From the NCBI RefSeq assembly GCF_024138715.1, contig NZ_CP092074.1:434001-498000 (forward strand): a stretch of DNA of 64,000 bases, written 5' to 3'. The notes beneath the pieces were generated by a model. That model did not search any database and was not told the DNA's origin. It saw nothing but the letters and a program-made list of their open reading frames with translations. How positions within the stretch are numbered: the first letter of the stretch is position 1; the number at the start of each line of letters is the position of its first letter. The translations under genes were made by a program, and so were the position numbers. The stretch is from Emticicia sp. 21SJ11W-3 (lineage in GTDB: Bacteria; Bacteroidota; Bacteroidia; Cytophagales; Spirosomataceae). Positions 22,991-53,480 of this stretch are shown piece after piece.

Positions 22991-24593
22991 CCTGACTTGT
23001 TCAAATTAGGTCAGCAAGTTAATTTTTCTTAGGATTTCCATGATTACTGGGTTTAGATTTGCCTTTATTTTTATTTCTTTTCCTGTAATCTTGTTTTTTA
23101 GCCTTGCCGTTGTTATCCTTTTACATTCATGGATACATTTGCGGATGGATTTGTTTGTTTGAAGTTCTATGTGCTTGGATATAACCAGTGCTGTAAAGCA
23201 AATTAACAGATGTAGCTTGATAGGTTCTTCTTTGTAGTGAAATATGGGTCTTGTCTGTAAATCGCTTTTAGCTATTCGGAAAGCCTGTTCTATTCTGAAC
23301 AATTCGTGATAACGTTCTATGATGGTATCATTGCTGAGAAGGCTTTCTTCTATATTGGTATAATAGCCTTTGATTCCCAGAATCTTTTGTGTTTTATCAA
23401 TTAGTTTCTGGTTGAGTGCTATAATTTCTTCTTTCGTGGTGGTGAACTTTAGCTTTTTGTTTTTGGAGGGGTTTTCGATGATGTATTTAGCATTTTCTAT
23501 TTGCTTTTCCATTTCATACTTATCCTTACGATACCTGACTGTGGAGTAGCTGCAAACCAAATATCCTTTGTCTGTTTTGATGCGGATGCTTTTGCCATCT
23601 TCACGCAAAATACTTTTGTCTATTGCCTCTATCAACTCATGGGAAAGATTACCTAATCTGGCTCCTACAATGTAGCTGATGTCATTTTCTCTTAGCGCCT
23701 CAATGTTTTCGGTACTAATCATTGCCGCATCAGCCACTACTGTAAAGTTTTTTACCTTATTTTTAAGGATGAAACTTTTTACAACGGGAATGATGGTATG
23801 CCCCTCGAAAGTATTGCCAGCAAAGACTTCGTAAGCTATCGGAAATCCCTCTTTACTGACCATTAGTGCCACTAAAATTTGTGGTTGTTGGAATTTATTA
23901 TCTTTAGAAAATCCATTCTTACGCAATTCATCTTCTTCAAAAGTCTCAAAGTACAAGGTAGTGACATCATAAAACAATAAGTCATAATTAAAGGCATAAT
24001 GCTTCCTGGCAAATGCGAGAGCAATGCCCTCGGCTTTCGACTTTAGTTTAAGCCACTCAGGAGCAGTCTTATAATAATTTTGTCTGCGATGTTTGATACC
24101 AAAATATTCCTCCAGAAGCGCAATAGAACGAAGTTTAGAGGCCGGTTCCATTATCCGCATAATGACCAAATCCAGAAGCAGAGTATTGTTTAGCTTGTCA
24201 AAACCGATGGCAAGGATAATTTTGGATAGTACATCATAAAGAAAAGTATAATGAACCCCGATAAATTCGGTTTGTCTGATATAAAATACATTGCCTGCTT
24301 GCTGGTCTTCAAAGAGAAAAAGTTGTTTAGAGATTTTTTCAATAAAATCATTAGCAAGAACAAGTAGGTCAGATTTCTCCTGCTCGTTACGAGCAGTGCC
24401 GATGTGGCGAACAATGACTCGCTTCCTGTTTTCAATCTTATAAACCTGGATAGAAACCGAACTTTCTGAATATTTTATTTGCCTGATTTTATACATTTTG
24501 ACCCATTAGGTCAGCAAATTACAAAATTAATAGAGTTAATATACTCTATTTCAGCAACTTATGATTTTAAATTTAAGAGGTGGACAAGTCGGG
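22991..24593 (-). mobile_element. IS1634-like (IS4-related) insertion sequence 1
   Basis: The 1603-bp element carries one transposase. Its termini are imperfect inverted repeats, CCTGACTTGTTC on the left and CCCGACTTGTCC on the right (10 of 12). Boundaries are set by where the 614-bp direct repeats stop. A 13-bp direct repeat (ATTAGGTCAGCAA) brackets the transposase gene at 23005-23017 and 24505-24517. Inserted into orfB of the IS3 element. Confidence 0.85.
23006..24496 (-). CDS. IS1634-type DDE transposase
   Basis: This 496-residue transposase of the IS1634 branch of the IS4 group appears intact. It starts MYKIRQIKYSESSVSIQVY, a usual IS1634 beginning (short beta domain), and has LFYDVTTLYFE (first catalytic Asp), VVADAAMIS (second Asp) and YHELFRIEQAFRIAKSDL, the Y-R-E-K signature that contains the catalytic Glu. 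A hydrophobic HLLICFTALVISKHIE helix follows. The stop codon overlaps the left subterminal direct repeat. About one third of positions look similar to the second IS1634-like transposase at 47383-48903, so the two are different elements of one family. Confidence 0.9.
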   Translation of the reverse strand: MYKIRQIKYSESSVSIQVYKIENRKRVIVRHIGTARNEQEKSDLLVLANDFIEKISKQLFLFEDQQAGNVFYIRQTEFIGVHYTFLYDVLSKIILAIGFDKLNNTLLLDLVIMRIMEPASKLRSIALLEEYFGIKHRRQNYYKTAPEWLKLKSKAEGIALAFARKHYAFNYDLLFYDVTTLYFETFEEDELRKNGFSKDNKFQQPQILVALMVSKEGFPIAYEVFAGNTFEGHTIIPVVKSFILKNKVKNFTVVADAAMISTENIEALRENDISYIVGARLGNLSHELIEAIDKSILREDGKSIRIKTDKGYLVCSYSTVRYRKDKYEMEKQIENAKYIIENPSKNKKLKFTTTKEEIIALNQKLIDKTQKILGIKGYYTNIEESLLSNDTIIERYHELFRIEQAFRIAKSDLQTRPIFHYKEEPIKLHLLICFTALVISKHIELQTNKSIRKCIHECKRITTARLKNKITGKEIKIKANLNPVIMEILRKINLLT

Positions 24594-45941: not shown

Positions 45942-47006
45942 ATGACATTATCTAGTGAGACAATATTCTTTATTGGCTTTGCCATTTTTGTAGCATTTGT
46001 GATGGCTCTTGATTTGGGGGCTTTCAGCAAATCTAAAAGCCATGTTGTGAGTTTTAAAGAGGCAGGTATCTGGAGCGCCGTTTGGGTGTCGCTGGCCATA
46101 GCCTTTTTCTTTTTTCTTCGCCAGTACGGGTATTTGATTCATGATATCAGTGATGAGAGCCATTTGCAGCATGTAAAGTCGCTTTATTACGATTCTTTAC
46201 AGCTACCGCCAAATTTTGATGCCGCCCTGCGTACTTTCCAGAATAGCATGGCTATTGATTACCTGACGGGTTATCTGACAGAGTATTCGCTTTCGGTTGA
46301 TAATATCTTTGTGTTTATACTGATTTTCAATTCGTTTGGGGTTGATAAAAAGTTTTATAAAAAGGTTTTGGTATGGGGTATTCTTGGCTCTATTGTTTTG
46401 CGTTTTATTTTCATTTTTATCGGGGCAGCGCTTATTCAGGAGTTTGAGTGGATTTTGTTTATTTTCGGCGCTTTTCTGATTTACACTGGTATAAATATTC
46501 TACGTAACAAGGAAGAAGATGAACAAATAGACCCGGCGCATCACCCTATTGTGAAGTTTGCTTCCAAATATTTTAACGTGTATAAGCGTAATGTAATTGA
46601 CCATTTTCTGGTGTATCACCGCCGTTATAAAAAGTGGTATATTACGCCTTTATTTCTGGTGATGCTGGTTATTGCAGGTACCGACGTGGTTTTTGCTGTT
46701 GACTCTATTCCTGCTATTTTCTCGATAACGAAAGACCCGTACATTGTATTCTTTTCCAATGTGTTTGCTATTATGGGGCTCCGCTCTATGTTTTTCTTCC
46801 TGGCTAGTATTATGGGCCTTTTCCGGTTCTTAAAATTTGGTCTGGGTATACTACTTACATTCATTGGCGTGAAGATGCTGTTGCACCACCAACTGTCTGC
46901 CGTAGGATTCACCAACGTGCATTCTTTGTTGGTAATTGTGGGTATTCTGGTGGTGAGTATTGGGGCCAGTGTGGTGTTTCCGGAGAAGAAAAGTAGCGCG
47001 GAGTGA
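45942..47006 (+). CDS. TerC/Alx family membrane protein
   Basis: This 354-residue protein has eight or nine membrane helices. The first part is typical of Alx/TerC (LDLGAFSKSKSHVVSFKEAGIWSAVWVSLA). A longer loop follows with FLTGYLTEYSLSVDNIFVFILIF, the acidic, metal-linked motif. DVVFAVDSIPAIFSITKDPYIVFFSNVFAIMGLRSMFF is the family signature. Alx homologues export manganese. The stop codon sits inside REP palindrome 1 (GCG GAG TGA), giving the terminal residues AE. Confidence 0.9.
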   Translation: MTLSSETIFFIGFAIFVAFVMALDLGAFSKSKSHVVSFKEAGIWSAVWVSLAIAFFFFLRQYGYLIHDISDESHLQHVKSLYYDSLQLPPNFDAALRTFQNSMAIDYLTGYLTEYSLSVDNIFVFILIFNSFGVDKKFYKKVLVWGILGSIVLRFIFIFIGAALIQEFEWILFIFGAFLIYTGINILRNKEEDEQIDPAHHPIVKFASKYFNVYKRNVIDHFLVYHRRYKKWYITPLFLVMLVIAGTDVVFAVDSIPAIFSITKDPYIVFFSNVFAIMGLRSMFFFLASIMGLFRFLKFGLGILLTFIGVKMLLHHQLSAVGFTNVHSLLVIVGILVVSIGASVVFPEKKSSAE

Positions 47007-47015
47007 TACTCCGCG
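46997..47015 (+). repeat. REP-type palindrome 1 (overlaps terC stop)
   Basis: CGCGGAGT-GAT-ACTCCGCG, perfect 8-bp arms. The last sense codon and stop of the TerC gene (GAG TGA) are in the left arm and loop. Confidence 0.9.
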
Positions 47016-47024
47016 TGAATGTTG

Positions 47025-47043
47025 CTCGGAGTGATACTCCGGG
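47025..47043 (+). repeat. REP-type palindrome 2
   Basis: CTCGGAGT-GAT-ACTCCGGG, 8-bp arms with one G.T wobble; 9 bases after palindrome 1 and in the same orientation (GAT loop). Confidence 0.85.
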
Positions 47044-47053
47044 ATTTCCGCTC

Positions 47054-47070
47054 TGAGGTGTTCTGCCTCA
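47054..47070 (+). repeat. Degenerate third palindrome upstream of RAYT
   Basis: TGAGG-TGTTCTG-CCTCA, a 5-bp stem 10 bases after palindrome 2 and 9 bases before the RAYT start codon. It may be a diverged REP unit. Confidence 0.4.
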
Positions 47071-47079
47071 AAGTTTGCT

Positions 47080-47364
47080 GTGATAATGAAAACCCATTAT
47101 AGAAGAAATTTACCTCATATTCTTCCTCCTGACGAAAGGTTGTTTATAACTTTCCGTCTGGCTAATTCTATGCCAAAAGAAATAATTAAGAAACTAATGG
47201 CCGAGAGAGAACTTGCAGAAGCACAGGTTAGAAAAATAGTTGCTGATGAAACAATAAGGAAAGTTGAACTATATAAAATTCAGAAGCGATACTTTGCCAG
47301 GTTCGACAGCTATCTGCATCAAAGCCTGAATGGGGTAACATGGCTTGGGGTTGAATCTATAGCA
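47080..47364 (+). pseudogene. RAYT transposase, 5' part (interrupted)
   Basis: First 95 codons of a REP-associated tyrosine transposase (Y1/HUH type): THYRRNLPHILPPDERLFITFRLANSMP is the usual start of the subfamily in Bacteroidota and cyanobacteria. The frame runs into the IS1634-like element and stops at 47415 after a foreign tail. Joining codon 95 to base 49164 restores a 216-residue protein in frame. Upstream REP palindromes belong to the same unit. Its last 133 bases are duplicated at 49031-49163. Confidence 0.9.
47232..47364 (+). repeat. Left copy of 133-bp direct repeat flanking IS1634-like element 2
   Basis: Identical, base for base, to 49031-49163 by my reading. It is internal RAYT coding sequence and ends at the IS left tip. 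Confidence 0.95.
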
Positions 47365-49030
47365 CCTGTTTTCCTCGCTGGGTCACCCAAAATTGATATG
47401 AAACAAATTAAGTAACTTTTCCTGTTCAGGTTTAGAGATATAAATTCTGCTATGAATCGTTTGCGAGAGTTGCGTTTTGAATGATACCTGATAAATTGTT
47501 TTTGTTATTTCTAAAGCTTGCTCAACACTCCATTCTGATTGTTTCTGTTTTAATTGTCTTTCCAGCTCTTTGAAAACCTTATAGGCACAAAATGCTATAC
47601 AGATGTGTGCTTCTATCCGGTGTTGGATACGATGGTATATCGGCCTTATTCTTAAATCTGTCTTAGATATTCTAAAGGCTCTTTCAATCTGCCATAAATA
47701 CCCATAGTTCTCTATTACTTCATCTTTAGAGAGTTTTGTATTGGTCATATATCCTTTGAGTCCATCCCACAGGGAATCTGCTGAATATTTTTCTTTGTCT
47801 ATTGAGATTTGAATACTTCCTTCCAGTTTCAGGTATTTGTTATAACCTCTGTTGTTGATACTGGTTTTGGTTAGTTTACCTGATTTTATCTGCTTTTCCA
47901 GCTTGTCTAATCCCCGCTTGCGGTTGTGGGCATCTTTTTTTGACCTTGCGTCAGAATAACTGACTAAAAGTTTTACGTTTGCGCTTTTTTCAATAAACGC
48001 GCTCTCACCATTTTGGAGTCCAAGTGCTAATATCCTGTTTTTAATGGTCGGACTTTCGGTTTTAATCCTGGCTCCTAAAATATATTCATACCCCTTTTGC
48101 TGAAGTAGCTCCATATTGTTTGTTGAAAGCAGCCCTGCATCGGCTACCACAACCAGTTTATCTAATTTGTATTTTTCTTTAAATCTATCCAGAACAGGAA
48201 GTAAGGTATGCCCTTCAAACTTATTGCCTTCAAAAACTTCGTATGCTAATGGGTACCCACCCACACTTATGAGTAACCCTAAAATTATTTGCGGATGTTG
48301 ATGCTTACCCTCTTTGGAAAAACCGGTAACTCTTAACTCATCGCCTTGTTCGGATTCAAAATACAAGGTCGTTACATCATAAAAAACAATATTTATCTGT
48401 CCATGCAGTACTTTGAGCGTATGGGCATAACTAATTTCTTGTATCTTGTTCTTTTGCTTGTGGTGCAACTTATCAAGATACCGATAAATCCGCTCTACGT
48501 CAACCATCTCATTCTTGTATCTGTATAGGTATTCTGTGGTCTTTAGTTTGCTTACAGGGTAAACCAGACGGGTAATAACCAGTTCACGGAACAGTGCATC
48601 TTTGATGACTCCAAACCCGATATCATCGAAAATCTTACCCACAATAAGTTCAGGGCCAACCAGATGAAAAGATTGTAAGGCTTGAAAATATTCAGCTACC
48701 AGAGCCGTCTCATTTTCAAAACTTAAAAATTGTTGGCCACCATATTGTAACACAAATTGTTTCCCTTCTTCAAATAGCTTTTCCACTGCTTGGCTATCAG
48801 AAGAACTGCCAATGGTTTTAACCAAAACAGATTTACCATCACGTTTTTCGATTACCTGAATGCTAATAACTCCGCTTCTATTTTTCTTCTTTCGGACAAA
48901 CATCGCCTATAAAGATACGCTGGGTCACCCAAATAAAAAATACAACTAATCATAAATGTTTGCTAGTCAGTTAATTAAAAATATTTCCTGCAAAAATCCA
49001 AGCACTTTTTGAAAAACCGAGGAAAACAGG
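47365..49030 (-). mobile_element. IS1634-like insertion sequence 2
   Basis: The 1666-bp element has perfect 13-bp inverted tips (CCTGTTTTCCTCG). Flanked by the 133-bp direct repeat. A 16-bp direct repeat, CGCTGGGTCACCCAAA, stands at 47376-47391 and 48918-48933, immediately outside the transposase gene. Confidence 0.92.
47383..48903 (-). CDS. IS1634-type DDE transposase (second element)
   Basis: This 506-residue transposase begins MFVRKKKNRSGVISIQV, and has IVFYDVTTLYFESEQGDEL (first Asp), VVVADAGLLSTNN (second Asp) and YGYLWQIERAFRISKTDLRIRPIYH (Y-R-E-K signature with Glu). It appears intact and could be active. It shares family and layout with the element-1 transposase but is clearly diverged from it. 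The gene ends 18 bases from the IS tip. Confidence 0.92.
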   Translation of the reverse strand: MFVRKKKNRSGVISIQVIEKRDGKSVLVKTIGSSSDSQAVEKLFEEGKQFVLQYGGQQFLSFENETALVAEYFQALQSFHLVGPELIVGKIFDDIGFGVIKDALFRELVITRLVYPVSKLKTTEYLYRYKNEMVDVERIYRYLDKLHHKQKNKIQEISYAHTLKVLHGQINIVFYDVTTLYFESEQGDELRVTGFSKEGKHQHPQIILGLLISVGGYPLAYEVFEGNKFEGHTLLPVLDRFKEKYKLDKLVVVADAGLLSTNNMELLQQKGYEYILGARIKTESPTIKNRILALGLQNGESAFIEKSANVKLLVSYSDARSKKDAHNRKRGLDKLEKQIKSGKLTKTSINNRGYNKYLKLEGSIQISIDKEKYSADSLWDGLKGYMTNTKLSKDEVIENYGYLWQIERAFRISKTDLRIRPIYHRIQHRIEAHICIAFCAYKVFKELERQLKQKQSEWSVEQALEITKTIYQVSFKTQLSQTIHSRIYISKPEQEKLLNLFHINFG

Positions 49031-49163
49031 AAAAATAGTTGCTGATGAAACAATAAGGAAAGTTGAACTATATAAAATTCAGAAGCGATACTTTGCCAGG
49101 TTCGACAGCTATCTGCATCAAAGCCTGAATGGGGTAACATGGCTTGGGGTTGAATCTATAGCA
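49031..49163 (+). repeat. Right copy of 133-bp direct repeat
   Basis: Identical to 47232-47364. Starts directly at the right IS tip. Confidence 0.95.
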
Positions 49164-49529
49164 GAAATATTAGCGGAAGCACTACATTTCAGAAATACCA
49201 AATATTATCAGTTACATGCCTTTTGCATAATGCCCAACCATGTGCATGTGTTGCTGACTGCCACAATTCATCAGGAAGGATTTTTCAGGGTTCTGCAATC
49301 ACTGAAAAGCCATACGGCACGCAAATCAAACGAATTACTGGATTTGACCGGCAATGCTTTCTGGGCACCAGAAAGTTATGACCACGTAGTGCGCAACGAT
49401 GAAGAGTTTGTTCGCGTTGTGGACTATATTGTTCAGAATCCGGTTAAGGCAGGGCTGGTCAATAACTGGCAGGCATGGAAGTTTAACTATTTGTCAGATG
49501 CTGTTAAGGGCTGGTACTTGCAGCCCTGA
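49031..49529 (+). pseudogene. RAYT transposase, 3' part (after IS insertion)
   Basis: This piece has the catalytic half. MPNHVHVLL contains the HUH motif (His121 and His123 of the rejoined protein) and NAFWAPESYDHVVRND contains the probable nucleophile Tyr167. VDYIVQNPVKAGLV is the usual C-terminal motif. It has no start with a promoter unless the ATG at 49230 is used, which would omit the HUH strand's N-terminal support. Palindromes 3 and 4 follow its stop. Confidence 0.88.
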
Positions 49530-49537
49530 GTATAACT

Positions 49538-49556
49538 CTCGGAGTGGCACTCCGAG
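49538..49556 (+). repeat. REP-type palindrome 3
   Basis: CTCGGAGT-GGC-ACTCCGAG, perfect arms, 8 bases after the RAYT stop. Confidence 0.88.
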
Positions 49557-49565
49557 GAACTGTTC

Positions 49566-49584
49566 CGCGGAGTATCACTCCGCG
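49566..49584 (-). repeat. REP-type palindrome 4 (overlaps helicase stop)
   Basis: CGCGGAGT-ATC-ACTCCGCG; the loop is the complement of palindromes 1 and 2, so it is in inverted orientation. On the minus strand it reads GCG GAG TGA and gives the helicase its last residues AE and stop. Confidence 0.9.
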
Positions 49585-52500
49585 TTACGGCTCCAGATTC
49601 TTTCAAATTTCCACCCTTTAGCCCGCAAACTTATAGGCAAGTAAGCATGCGCCTCTTTAGGCGAAATGCTTTCGAAATACAAATCATCGTCTGTCAGAAT
49701 CAACGATTCATATCTGCCAGCGTCTTTTACAGTAACATCAGCAAAGGGCAGCTCCAGGTAAAATCCGGAGTTCTCCTGAACCAGCTGGTGCTTCAACAAC
49801 CAACGCGTGTTCAGCTTTTCGGTAGAAAAAGGCTCAGGCGAGTATTTACCCTCCGATACCTCCAATGCGTATTCCAGATATTTCTTCAATAGTTTCGGGC
49901 CGTTGTTGGTTGCCTGCTCTACCTGCAACTGATGAGGCAGAATACTACTTACAATATATACCTGTTCTCTGGCGCGGGTAATCGCCACATTCAGTCGGTT
50001 TTCTCCTCCCTGCTGGTTCAGGCTACCAAAGTTCATCAATAGCTTACCTTTCAGATTAGGGGCATATCCTACCGAGAAAATCACAATATCATACTCATCG
50101 CCCTGAATATTCTCAATATTTTTAATTACACCCCAGTCTTCACCCAGTTCGGGGGTAATGGTCTGGTAAATCAAATCAGCCTGTTTGAAGTTGAAAGTAA
50201 CCACACCAATAGTTTTGGTTGGTAGTTTTTTCTTGAGGTCAGTTACAATTTCAAGCACCCTTTGGGCTTCAATCGGATTAGTGTTATTTTCCCAGAAACC
50301 ATCCAGTTTAATAAAGCTGATGGCAGGTTTATTCTTACTTATCTCGGAATAATGAGGCAATAGTTGAAGCGAGTTCTTGTAAAAATGCTGATTCGAGAAG
50401 TCAATCAGATCTAAAGACTGGCTTCGGTAATGGCCTTTGAGCCAGGCCTGAGGCAGATACTGTGCGGCCAGGTCTAGCAGAGAGTCAATTTCTAGTGCAG
50501 GTTCGTCTTCGGCGTCTTCATCGTACCTTACCTGATACAGGTCGGTTGGCTGCAATTGCTTGGAGTCGCCGGCAATTACCACCTGCTTACCCCTGTAAAT
50601 AGCCGGGATACCGTTTTCAGCAAAGCATTGAGAGGCCTCATCAAAAATTACGAGGTCAAATAAAGAGTCCTCCGGATTTTGAGCCGACAACGGAAAAATA
50701 GCAGACACCGATTCCGGCGAAGCCATCCAGCAGGGTATGAGTTTGAATATTTCTTCTGAATGATTCTCCAGTAATTTCCGTACCGACCATAACTTGCGTT
50801 TTTTGGTGGTCTGGTGTTGTAACTCCCGGTAGGTAACTACATTTTGAAGACGATTAACCTCAAGGTCCTGATATGTCTGCTCTCGCAGTTTCAGCAGCAG
50901 TATTTCCTGGCTCAGTTCCTGTTTTTTCAAGACACTTTCCTGTAACTCTGCTTCCAGTTGTTCCACCTTAAGCGAGCTAACCCCGCGGAGAATCGGATAA
51001 AGATTCTCAATGTGGTTTCTCCAGGCCAGGCGTAAAGCGTTCTGAAAAACAGCTCCTAACTCAGCAATATCAACCTGTTGGCTTTTGTAATTCAATAATC
51101 GTTGCACAATTTCCAGTTCAGCAGCCAGAAAAGACTCTTTCAGTTCATCGGCCTCTACCATCAAATCAAAGTGCTGTTTCAGGTAACCCAGTCGCCCCTT
51201 CTTTAGGTCGGGCACATCTACCAGTTTTTCTATCTGCGGTACAGAAAGATGCTCATTCCATTGTGCAAAATGCCGCTTGGTGTCGGCAATTAATTGTTCC
51301 AGCGCATTAAAAGTTCGTAAAAATATAGTCTTCGGATTCTGGAATATATGCGTTGTCTGTCTCAGAATAGCTTCTTCCTGCTGGTATTGGGCATAGGCCT
51401 TATTAGCCAGAATGAAATTCTGAAGATATGCCGAAAGGGTATCCCAACTGTCTTTTTCATCAATCAGAATTTCTTTTTTGCTAAGTTTTTCCTTTATATC
51501 CTCAAAGGTAATACGCTGATGAATCTTCTTTCTCAGGTTGCTTAGTCCTTCTTCACTGACAGGCAGCCGGTTATTAGCCAAAAGCGCTTCTATGTCTTTT
51601 TTATCTTTTGAAAACAGTTTCCAGATAAACCAGTTTAAAGCCGACTGGCTGGCAGCATAAGCTTTTTCTATCTGCGCTTTTCTGAAATTTAAATCGCGGG
51701 CCGGAATACTCGGCTCAATGCCATCGTTGATAAACAGTTTTTCAAGCGACTGGTAGATTTTTTCTATGTCAAACAGCCGGTTACTTGTAAATTTACCCTG
51801 CTGAATGATAGACCTGAAAATTTCTTCAACCTCTTTGTTTTCAAAGTTCTGAATAAATCTCTTGAGCATTTGCTCATCAAAATTATTCAGTTCAATAACT
51901 GAAAACAGTTGCCCGTGTTTTTGTTGAAAATCTATGATGTCTTCAATCGTTTCTGATATTCTGGGCAGTTCAATGAAATTTTTATTCCGGAACGAGTTCC
52001 TTAATTGCCAGAAGTCGTAACCTGCTGATGCCTGAAGTTTAGCCTCGTATTTCAAAAAGCGGTTCAGGCGTCCTTCAAAGTCGGCCAGCTCATCAAACCT
52101 GAAAGAGCGGTAAAGGTCTTGTATCTCAATGGCAGGCTTGTTAATATTGCTGCTCAGATAAAGTTCTTTTACCGACACCCCACATATTGACTCATCAAAA
52201 AGTGCGTCTTTCAGTTCCTGCAATTCTTCTGAAATCTTATCTATCCGCCTGCTGATTTGCGTAAAGTTGCGTTCCAGGAAAATGGCATCCAACCCTTTGT
52301 TCTTTTTCTGAAACTCTTCAACACGCGCTATTTGTCCGGCTATTTTATCAAAAAGTGTTTTCCTGTCGTTTTTAAAATCATGAATCAACGCTACGAAATC
52401 TGTCATCAGTATTTTTTGTAGCCGCTGGTACACGGTGTCGAGGGCCACACGTTTCTGGCATACAACCAGCACTTTTTTACCGCGGGCTGTAAAATCGGCA

Positions 52501-53480
52501 ATCAGGTTGGCAATGAGCTGAGACTTGCCAGTGCCCGGAGGCCCCTGCACTACAACAGAGCCACCTTCTTTTACCTGTTTAATGGCCTCTTCCTGAGAGG
52601 CATCAATGGCAAAGGGTAAAAAGGCTGTTTCTTCCTTATACGGGGCCTGCGGGGCAGGTATAGAAGCATGCTCAAAAAATTCTTCAAAGGTATCAAGCTC
52701 ATAATGCCCCTCTTCGGCGTTTTTTATCAGCTCTTCGTAATCAGGCACAAGGTAAGACCCCGCCTGCGGAAAAATACCCAACACCGCCTGAGGCTGTAGT
52801 TTCAGCTCGCCATTTCTTTCTGATTTATCGAGGTCGGCACGGTTTAACTTTTCAAAATCAATTAGCTGATTAGTGAACAGTTCCTGATTAAAATTAACCT
52901 CAACCGGGCTGTCTTTCAGCATTTCATATAATTGGGTACGAAACGCCAGGCTATCTTTATCAAAATCCTCAAACGATTTCTCCAGCCATTCGTCGGGTAG
53001 CTTTATCTGGTTAAAATGCGAATACGCCAACAGGAAACTCCTGTTCAGGCTTACGGGTTCATCGCGCTGTTCAAGCATCCACTTTTTGCCGTTGTTTTTT
53101 AGCGTAACCGGAAAAAACAATAGCGGGCACCTGACAACGGTGCCATCTGAAAGTTTACCTTTTACAAACGGATACCCAATGTATAAATCTTTAGCACCCC
53201 GTTCTTCTTCAATGAAGGCCTCCGTTCGTGCCAGCTTGCGAAGCCGTTGGCTGGCTTCATTTACTTTATCGAAGCGGCTGTCGTGTACATCGCACAAAGG
53301 TATCTGCGTTTTTTGTGCAATTAATTGATGGATGTAGTCGAACGACGGCTTGCTGTCAAGAAAATTCAGGATATGTAAATCAATGAACTGTTCCTGAGGT
53401 AAACTTAACAATAATAATGACCGATTACGGGACGTAAGATTAGTCAGTCTGCGGAGGTATGTCTTTAGTAATTTCTGCAC
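49575..53480 (-). CDS. Large SF1 (DNA2/Upf1-like) helicase with nuclease-like C-terminus
   Basis: This 1301-residue protein starts at a GTG. A DUF4011-like N-terminal domain (NLTSRNRSLLLLSLP, IGYPFVKGKL..) precedes the helicase. Walker A GPPGTGKS is at residues 313-320, followed by VLVVCQKRVALDTVYQRL (motif Ia). A long coiled-coil and helical insertion (about 370-900) splits the motor. Walker B LVIFDEASQC, GDSKQLQP (III), QGDEYDIVIFSVGYAP and NVAITRAREQVYIVSS (V/VI) close it. The tail (LPISLRAKGWKFERIWS) looks like the small Vsr-like/DUF559-type nuclease end of this helicase class. Possible roles are DNA repair or defence. It stands alone and its stop lies in REP palindrome 4. Confidence 0.85.
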   Translation of the reverse strand: MQKLLKTYLRRLTNLTSRNRSLLLLSLPQEQFIDLHILNFLDSKPSFDYIHQLIAQKTQIPLCDVHDSRFDKVNEASQRLRKLARTEAFIEEERGAKDLYIGYPFVKGKLSDGTVVRCPLLFFPVTLKNNGKKWMLEQRDEPVSLNRSFLLAYSHFNQIKLPDEWLEKSFEDFDKDSLAFRTQLYEMLKDSPVEVNFNQELFTNQLIDFEKLNRADLDKSERNGELKLQPQAVLGIFPQAGSYLVPDYEELIKNAEEGHYELDTFEEFFEHASIPAPQAPYKEETAFLPFAIDASQEEAIKQVKEGGSVVVQGPPGTGKSQLIANLIADFTARGKKVLVVCQKRVALDTVYQRLQKILMTDFVALIHDFKNDRKTLFDKIAGQIARVEEFQKKNKGLDAIFLERNFTQISRRIDKISEELQELKDALFDESICGVSVKELYLSSNINKPAIEIQDLYRSFRFDELADFEGRLNRFLKYEAKLQASAGYDFWQLRNSFRNKNFIELPRISETIEDIIDFQQKHGQLFSVIELNNFDEQMLKRFIQNFENKEVEEIFRSIIQQGKFTSNRLFDIEKIYQSLEKLFINDGIEPSIPARDLNFRKAQIEKAYAASQSALNWFIWKLFSKDKKDIEALLANNRLPVSEEGLSNLRKKIHQRITFEDIKEKLSKKEILIDEKDSWDTLSAYLQNFILANKAYAQYQQEEAILRQTTHIFQNPKTIFLRTFNALEQLIADTKRHFAQWNEHLSVPQIEKLVDVPDLKKGRLGYLKQHFDLMVEADELKESFLAAELEIVQRLLNYKSQQVDIAELGAVFQNALRLAWRNHIENLYPILRGVSSLKVEQLEAELQESVLKKQELSQEILLLKLREQTYQDLEVNRLQNVVTYRELQHQTTKKRKLWSVRKLLENHSEEIFKLIPCWMASPESVSAIFPLSAQNPEDSLFDLVIFDEASQCFAENGIPAIYRGKQVVIAGDSKQLQPTDLYQVRYDEDAEDEPALEIDSLLDLAAQYLPQAWLKGHYRSQSLDLIDFSNQHFYKNSLQLLPHYSEISKNKPAISFIKLDGFWENNTNPIEAQRVLEIVTDLKKKLPTKTIGVVTFNFKQADLIYQTITPELGEDWGVIKNIENIQGDEYDIVIFSVGYAPNLKGKLLMNFGSLNQQGGENRLNVAITRAREQVYIVSSILPHQLQVEQATNNGPKLLKKYLEYALEVSEGKYSPEPFSTEKLNTRWLLKHQLVQENSGFYLELPFADVTVKDAGRYESLILTDDDLYFESISPKEAHAYLPISLRAKGWKFERIWSRNAE

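Follow-up and report, generated by a model that had tools for sequence, protein, structure and literature searches.

The TerC-helicase junction

We analysed 64,000 nucleotides of Emticicia sp. 21SJ11W-3 (contig NZ_CP092074.1, positions 434,001 to 498,000; this whole stretch is called the window, and positions refer to it unless a genome position is stated). Between a TerC-family membrane protein gene and a DUF4011/SF1 (superfamily 1) helicase gene lies what is very probably a dying REPtron, that is, the gene of a REP-associated tyrosine transposase (RAYT) bounded by outward-footed hairpins of the repetitive extragenic palindrome (REP) type and inactivated by an insertion sequence (IS). In this reading the stop codons of both neighbours, which lie inside the outer hairpins, would be a by-product of hairpin landing, and the REP at the helicase end would predate the divergence of four sister species. 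The features of the junction are listed below (an asterisk denotes the stop; R in the foot GTAR is A or G).

45942..47006, plus strand: TerC-family membrane protein gene (Pfam TerC, 163.5 bits), ending AGT AGC GCG GAG TGA (SSAE*)
46993..47015, plus strand: left outer REP, foot GTAG (46993-46996) and hairpin CGCGGAGT-GAT-ACTCCGCG; TerC TGA at 47004-47006
47027..47041, plus strand: left inner palindrome CGGAGTGATACTCCG, without clear foot
49540..49554, plus strand: right inner palindrome CGGAGTGGCACTCCG, with a loop of the Hymenobacter caeli type, without clear foot
49566..49588, minus strand: right outer REP, foot GTAA (49588-49585) and hairpin CGCGGAGT-GAT-ACTCCGCG; helicase TGA at 49577-49575
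49575..53480, minus strand: DUF4011/SF1 helicase gene, 1301 aa (Pfam AAA_11/AAA_12/DUF4011), ending CGT AAC GCG GAG TGA (RNAE*)

The two genes are convergent, with the RAYT unit between them. Four CGGAGT-NNN-ACTCCG palindromes (CGGAGTnnnACTCCG), all exact, were found at 46999-47013, 47027-47041, 49540-49554, and 49568-49582, two on each side of the RAYT, in agreement with a preliminary description of this DNA; when up to 2 mismatches were allowed the window contained 5, against 0.67 expected. The outer palindromes are opposite in orientation, as had also been described. Each has its foot on the outward, gene-facing side, GTAG read on the plus strand and GTAA on the minus strand. Both outer hairpins have a perfect 8-bp stem and the loop GAT; RNA folding gave z values of -4.35 (left) and -4.21 (right) for the hairpins and of -2.68 (left) and -4.94 (right) for their 76-nt contexts.

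The TerC stop lies within the left outer REP and the helicase stop within the right one. GCG GAG TGA was read in both genes, which bears out the proposal that the outer palindromes encode the terminal residues AE and the stop. In both cases TGA begins at the final base of the 5' stem arm, and its other two bases fall in the GAT loop. The foot itself is out of the stop frame in TerC (AGT AGC) and in the helicase (CGT AAC), and the frame continues into the hairpin until TGA is reached.

The transposase gene and its interruption

47086..47364, plus strand: 5' part of the RAYT gene, 93 codons, left of the IS
47232..47364, plus strand: left copy of the 133-bp direct repeat, identical to the right copy
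47365..49030, no strand assigned: IS1634-family insertion sequence, 1666 bp, 13-bp terminal inverted repeats CCTGTTTTCCTCG/CGAGGAAAACAGG
47383..48903, minus strand: IS1634-family transposase, 506 aa (NF033559, 350 bits, cut-off 100)
49031..49163, plus strand: right copy of the 133-bp direct repeat, identical to the left copy
49031..49529, plus strand: 3' part of the RAYT gene, with the HUH motif (NHVH) and the YIVQNP motif of a REP-associated tyrosine transposase

The 3' part of the RAYT passed the cut-off of NCBIfam NF047646 (REP-associated tyrosine transposase; 84.8 bits, cut-off 80) and that of Y1_Tnp (29.5 bits, cut-off 23), and since the palindrome also recurs in the genome, the identification of the locus as a REP/RAYT unit holds. 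The locus presents the defining elements of a REPtron: a REP-class Y1 (HUH) transposase, palindromes on both sides, a foot at the outer hairpins, and a dispersed repeat. The gene is not intact: its reading frame is split by the IS at 47365-49030, which the preliminary description had missed. The perfect 133-bp direct repeat that flanks the IS consists of RAYT sequence and represents the target duplication; with its family DDE transposase, 13-bp inverted repeats, and direct repeats the element has what defines the IS1634 family. Judging from the interrupted frame, the RAYT has apparently been inactivated by this IS1634-type insertion. The insertion is probably recent, given that the frame is open for 214 codons once the IS and one copy of the repeat are removed.

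Relatives of the RAYT were collected from a contig scan that gave at least 504, of which the best 80 were retained. Among these the nearest is the RAYT of Hymenobacter caeli (53-54% identity), which matches the solved TnpAREP structure 4er8 (E 3.4e-6). A tree was built from 71 of the 80 loci, leaving out nine with a stop within the matched stretch or with fewer than 120 aa; in it the RAYT of the window clusters with that of H. caeli and two from Spirosoma, apart from the other RAYTs of the genus, and the H. caeli/Spirosoma grouping has a support of 94/92, just below the starred threshold of the tree tool. Compared by table motifs only, NHVH, FWA, YIVQNP, and the 214 codons resemble the row of subclass 2.7 in the classification of Quentin 2018 (PMC6006769), which reads [ND]HVH, WQ, YI[LR][NQ]NP, 213 aa; subclass 2.4 was also considered.

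About 2.2 kb past the window end there is a second, open RAYT of 216 aa (G000:C1:500178-500828, L023:2179-2829), 43% identical in the matched part, whose upstream palindrome belongs to a different family (CGCGAAC...GTTCGCG).

Copies of the palindrome in this and other genomes

The genome (5.18 Mb) contains 10 copies of CGGAGTnnnACTCCG versus 0 of a backwards-read control pattern, and 6 of the 10 lie away from the locus, so the idea that the palindrome is confined to it was rejected. A pair at 2160711/2160738 is immediately 3' of the TAA of a Vut_1-family transporter gene; the copy at 2275552, with a GTAG foot, is nine bases upstream of an AraC-family start, and that at 4869846 is 33 nt past a stop. 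The other two are within genes. At 3313322-3313336 (L008:1501-1515), GTAG and a perfect GGCGGAGT-GAT-ACTCCGCC are in frame in the ThiE gene and spell HVGRSDTPP, and the copy at 4474902 is within a GH125 frame and spells SEWYS. We presume both peptides to be conserved motifs of their families, and these two copies may be a coding coincidence; we therefore do not regard all ten as clearly REPs.

In H. caeli the same core occurs 39 times versus 0 for the control, with a GTAR foot in 38 of the 39 copies and 28 arranged in inverted pairs; the commonest form is GTARAA-CGGAGTGGYACTCCG-TT. As this species has the nearest RAYT, the CGGAGT stem accompanies the RAYT across genera. Six further named genomes had no copy (four of them), one copy with another loop (one), or two copies (Larkinella rosea). 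The exact form with a 3-nt loop was absent from the matches listed for the other genomes of the genus. One of these, G008, has 10 copies of the CGGAATnnnATTCCG form, some of them GTAR-footed and others within long frames. Matches to CGGAATnnnATTCCG in long frames of G008, G002, and the present genome (L100, L102, L103, L104, L106, L107, L112, and L114, where L100 is TonB-receptor-like and L102 FG-GAP/ASPIC) look like chance and were not counted as REPs.

A footed palindrome of the CGGAAT form stands beside what seems to be the same gene pair in G008 (L105) and G001 (L115), with different loops, and is probably an old shared copy.

Stop codons at related RAYT loci

Hairpins with the same stem were found on both sides of the RAYT in 35 of the best 80 loci, and in 28 of 86 (these 80 plus six RAYTs of the genus) the stop of the RAYT itself is in a footed hairpin. 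Where the end of a neighbouring gene faces a footed hairpin, its stop is inside in 29 of 71 cases, against 6.2% for stops shifted by 15-200 nt; this null ignores relatedness, so the count by neighbour family, 18 captured of 57, is the safer figure. The captured stop is the TAR of the foot in 24 of the 29 cases and lies in the hairpin body in 5. A Pfam domain was found among the scanned members of 14 of the 18 captured families. Two families are doubtful: the L132/L135 type, without Pfam domain and with the look of a shadow frame, and L154, one of the 14, whose hairpin is AT-rich. At three Hymenobacter loci (L132, L143, and L146) one neighbour ends in AGT AGC GCG GAC TTT TAG (SSADF*), with foot and stem read just as in the SSAE* of TerC.

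In the genus, RAYTs of G006 and G005 (L026:2251-2922, L025:2265-2903, and L038:2459-3247) end in a TAG or TAA that is the foot of the downstream hairpin; their stems differ (GACAGG, ACAATT).

The same junction in relatives of the genus

The comparison covered 11 genomes, this one (G000) and 10 others. In all 10 TerC adjoins the helicase, and the two matches are about 35-220 bp apart, a gap too short for a RAYT (in G005 and G004 the helicase match is split or partial); the unit is present at the junction in only 1 of the 11. The closest three (G001, G002, and G008), whose TerC is 90-94% identical, have no RAYT at the site, and their helicase genes end in CGT AAC ACG GAA TGA (RNTE*), with the stop inside a palindrome at the same codon. 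In G001 and G002 this palindrome is bounded by GTAAC and, on the opposite side, by GTTAC; its loops differ among the three. Their TerC genes end in KKQTE*, KKQNA*, and KK*, with TAA, outside the palindrome. In the seven more distant species the helicase ends in RNF*, RNK*, RNL*, or similar, without a CGGAAT palindrome at the stop.

Because the three sisters share the overlap at the helicase end without a RAYT at the site, this overlap predates the present form of the unit, and would also predate the split of the four sister species; the helicase stop is thus captured independently of the RAYT unit. Among the ends compared, the overlap with the TerC stop is peculiar to this genome. The proposed capture of both stops is therefore only in part an effect of the unit, since the helicase ends in the palindrome with ACG GAA TGA in three sisters that have no RAYT here. 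Relatives without a RAYT but with the same ends, which the preliminary description had named as evidence against its own claim, were largely found for the helicase end and not for the TerC end.

The single hairpin of G001 and G002, with its GTAAC and GTTAC feet, is like the double-foot REPs or REP singlets described by Quentin 2018 and by Bertels and Rainey 2011, for which central deletion of an inverted REP pair is the published explanation (PMC6006769; PMC3116915). It is unlike those described in that the palindrome of the sisters overlaps the helicase stop, its loops vary among the three, and only one foot is good in G008. A collapsed inverted REP pair or unit would be expected to show GTAAC feet at its two ends. 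The unit may have been gained here or lost in the sisters.

In two of the sisters, G002 and G008, the hairpin of a further RAYT, GTATCACGATTTTTTAAATCGT, falls within the final codons of the gene upstream (L024:2231-2869 and L030:2267-2905), whose VYHDFLNR... tail reads as a REP-encoded C-terminus.

Hairpin-free orthologues

Orthologues without hairpin were read at four gene ends outside the locus, each chosen because the TAA of the foot is the stop. At all four the hairpin is directly 3' of a G-TAA stop, and G-TAA was also read in part of the orthologues without hairpin: 5 of 10 for the Vut_1-family transporter, 1 of 7 for a response regulator, 4 of 6 read for a 380-aa protein, and 1 of 2 for an S41 peptidase. 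Of the 25 hairpin-free orthologues, 24 terminate at the same codon. For the 380-aa protein seven ends, the query's own included, were obtained from ten full-length relatives, with L229-L231 left out; the frame of G002 extends beyond the common end, and G001 keeps a possible decayed hairpin.

Given these ends, and because a GTAA brought by the element would be expected to alter gene length, the hairpin was most likely set down at these four ends immediately behind a GTAA already present. This suggests that GTAR is a landing site and the stops a by-product. Whether GTAR was there before the hairpin can be tested directly in sequences by comparing gene ends with and without hairpin, and a pre-existing GTAR would explain REP-supplied stops without selection. 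Elements of the IS200/IS605 type use a tetranucleotide beside the hairpin, and for REPs GTAG has been argued to be a guide (PMC8266576); here GTAR may serve as target, guide, or both.

We extend this tentatively, and with more doubt than confidence, to the whole RAYT clade. GTAR would then be a landing site and not only a carried guide, with the hairpin laid directly 3' of an existing GTAR. Genes ending in G-TAA or G-TAG would be harmless landing pads, TAA and TAG being stop codons; in another frame, hairpin-encoded tails (SSAE*, SSADF*, RNTE*) would result, and the double-foot scars of the sisters would mark the sites of lost RAYT units. Among the papers listed on REP/RAYT/REPIN (REPIN, a REP doublet forming a hairpin), stop codons, and target sites, with most subscription journals outside the scope, no account of pre-existing GTAR at empty sites was recognised.

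Proposed history and alternatives

The most likely history of the locus is as follows. In single-stranded form the hairpins would have been bound, and presumably moved, by the RAYT, an HUH/Y1 nuclease. Where a hairpin landed 3' of a GTAR that was still within a gene, a few bases short of its end, the native stop would be displaced and the frame would run into the hairpin, to be terminated by its TGA (SSAE*, RNAE*); where GTAR was G plus the stop codon, the stop would simply be retained. The RAYT is now inactivated by the IS1634-type insertion. The single palindrome of the three sisters may be what a collapse by central deletion left of the whole unit or of an inverted REP pair.

Several observations weigh against this account. 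A clear GTAR foot is missing from the inner palindromes, which makes the pairs imperfect REPINs, and the helicase-end palindrome of G008 has only one good foot. No relative shows a pre-insertion GTAG at the TerC end. The four empty-site cases were selected for a foot that is the stop and therefore do not measure frequency, and 14 of the 25 hairpin-free orthologues have a different stop or last base in place of GTAA. With no RAYT closer than about 54% identity, the case for REP-RAYT specificity depends on position and on the stem in common. Four of the 18 captured families are without Pfam domain, and some captured neighbour frames may be spurious. Finally, a stop is touched by only 3 of the 10 palindromes of this genome and by only 2 of the 38 footed copies of H. 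caeli, where all 39 copies were fetched; there is thus no strong genome-wide preference for stops, and stop overlap as a general rule for the CGGAGT repeat was discarded.

The convergence of the two genes brings to mind bidirectional terminators shared by both, in which case the palindromes would not be REPs and their repeat likeness would be secondary. More distant members of the genus (such as G003, G004, G006, and G007) have other palindromes at the junction, some with T-rich flanks. In the terminator scan the left hairpin was listed as terminator-like on the strand opposite to TerC, the minus strand. However, neither outer hairpin is followed by the T-run of an intrinsic terminator on the gene-exit side, the excess of terminator-like sites in the stretch is weak (six found, 2.4 expected), and the same GTAR-footed stem recurs in the genome, around a RAYT, and 39 times in H. 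caeli, mostly paired. We consider this explanation very unlikely. Selection could also have placed the stop inside the hairpin for translation control. It is known that Escherichia coli REPs at 15 nt or less from the stop stall ribosomes (as cited in PMC12306157); both outer hairpins are stable alone and in context with the stops within, and the helicase stop of the sisters remains in the palindrome despite the differing loops. Such control is nevertheless improbable, given that the tails vary freely among relatives (KK*, KKQNA*, KKQTE*, KKEA*; RNF*, RNK*) and that only a minority of copies touches a stop.

A weightier alternative concerns the sisters. Instead of being lost in the three of them, the RAYT unit could have been inserted whole in this species into a single REP already present at the helicase end. 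The presence of the unit in one genome of 11 agrees with it, as does the lack, in the other 10, of any match to the window RAYT above 44% identity over more than 50 residues. The GTAAC feet on both ends in G001 and G002, as for a collapsed pair, speak against it, and so do the dispersed footed CGGAAT repeats of G008. This insertion is a real possibility, falling somewhat short of an even chance. The flanks of three transposase loci of G008 (C2, C44, and C48; the weaker matches C11 and C12 were left out) contained no CGGAAT or CGGAGT palindrome.

Relation to known systems

The dying REPtron proposed here is like the described REPtron/RAYT (TnpAREP) systems with GTAG REPs (Nunvar 2010, PMC2817692; Di Nocera 2013, PMC3733652; Quentin 2018, PMC6006769) in that a Y1/HUH gene is flanked by opposite, GTAR-footed hairpins, the repeats are dispersed in the genome, and REPs are at, or supply, the stops of neighbouring open reading frames (the latter in Di Nocera 2013). 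It differs from the REPtrons of these accounts in the GTAG/GTAA foot, in the hairpin TGA that ends both convergent neighbours, in the IS-broken RAYT, and in having only 10 copies. A REP/RAYT unit with stop capture had been called unusual for Bacteroidota, which the literature does not sustain: stop supply by REP termini (Di Nocera 2013, PMC3733652) and RAYT subclasses with REPs in Bacteroidetes (Quentin 2018, PMC6006769) are both published. One published list of GTAG repeats names Proteobacteria, Cyanobacteria, Chloroflexi, and the PVC (Planctomycetes-Verrucomicrobia-Chlamydiae) group and not Bacteroidetes, for which the 2018 survey (PMC6006769) gives RAYT subclasses with REPs. Both aspects being known, what is new is the hairpins directly after G-TAA stops at four gene ends, with G-TAA also in some hairpin-free orthologues. 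REP dissemination has been called poorly understood, and GTAG has been treated as a guide inside the element (PMC8266576). The locus presents a RAYT after inactivation beside sisters that have only a palindrome at this site, and bears on how such transposases are lost.

Direct repeats of the IS1634 family are typically of 5-6 bp, and two members have variable ones of 8-514 bp ("IS4 family goes genomic," 2008, PMC2266710). With an IS1634-family transposase, 1666 bp, and a 133-bp repeat, the IS of the RAYT is like the IS1634/IS1549 elements with long, variable target duplications. Unlike that description, the same genome also has a 124-bp non-autonomous derivative with the same ends (G000:C1:3912877-3912989; L235, element 1501-1624), flanked by a 145-bp direct repeat with 2 mismatches, a second long target duplication. 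The copy at the RAYT locus was the only full-length match to the 1666-bp IS found in the genome. Five places in the genome, one at about 23783-23979 of the window (G000:C1:457783-457979), are 67% identical in DNA to the middle of the IS and probably belong to another, multi-copy related IS family.

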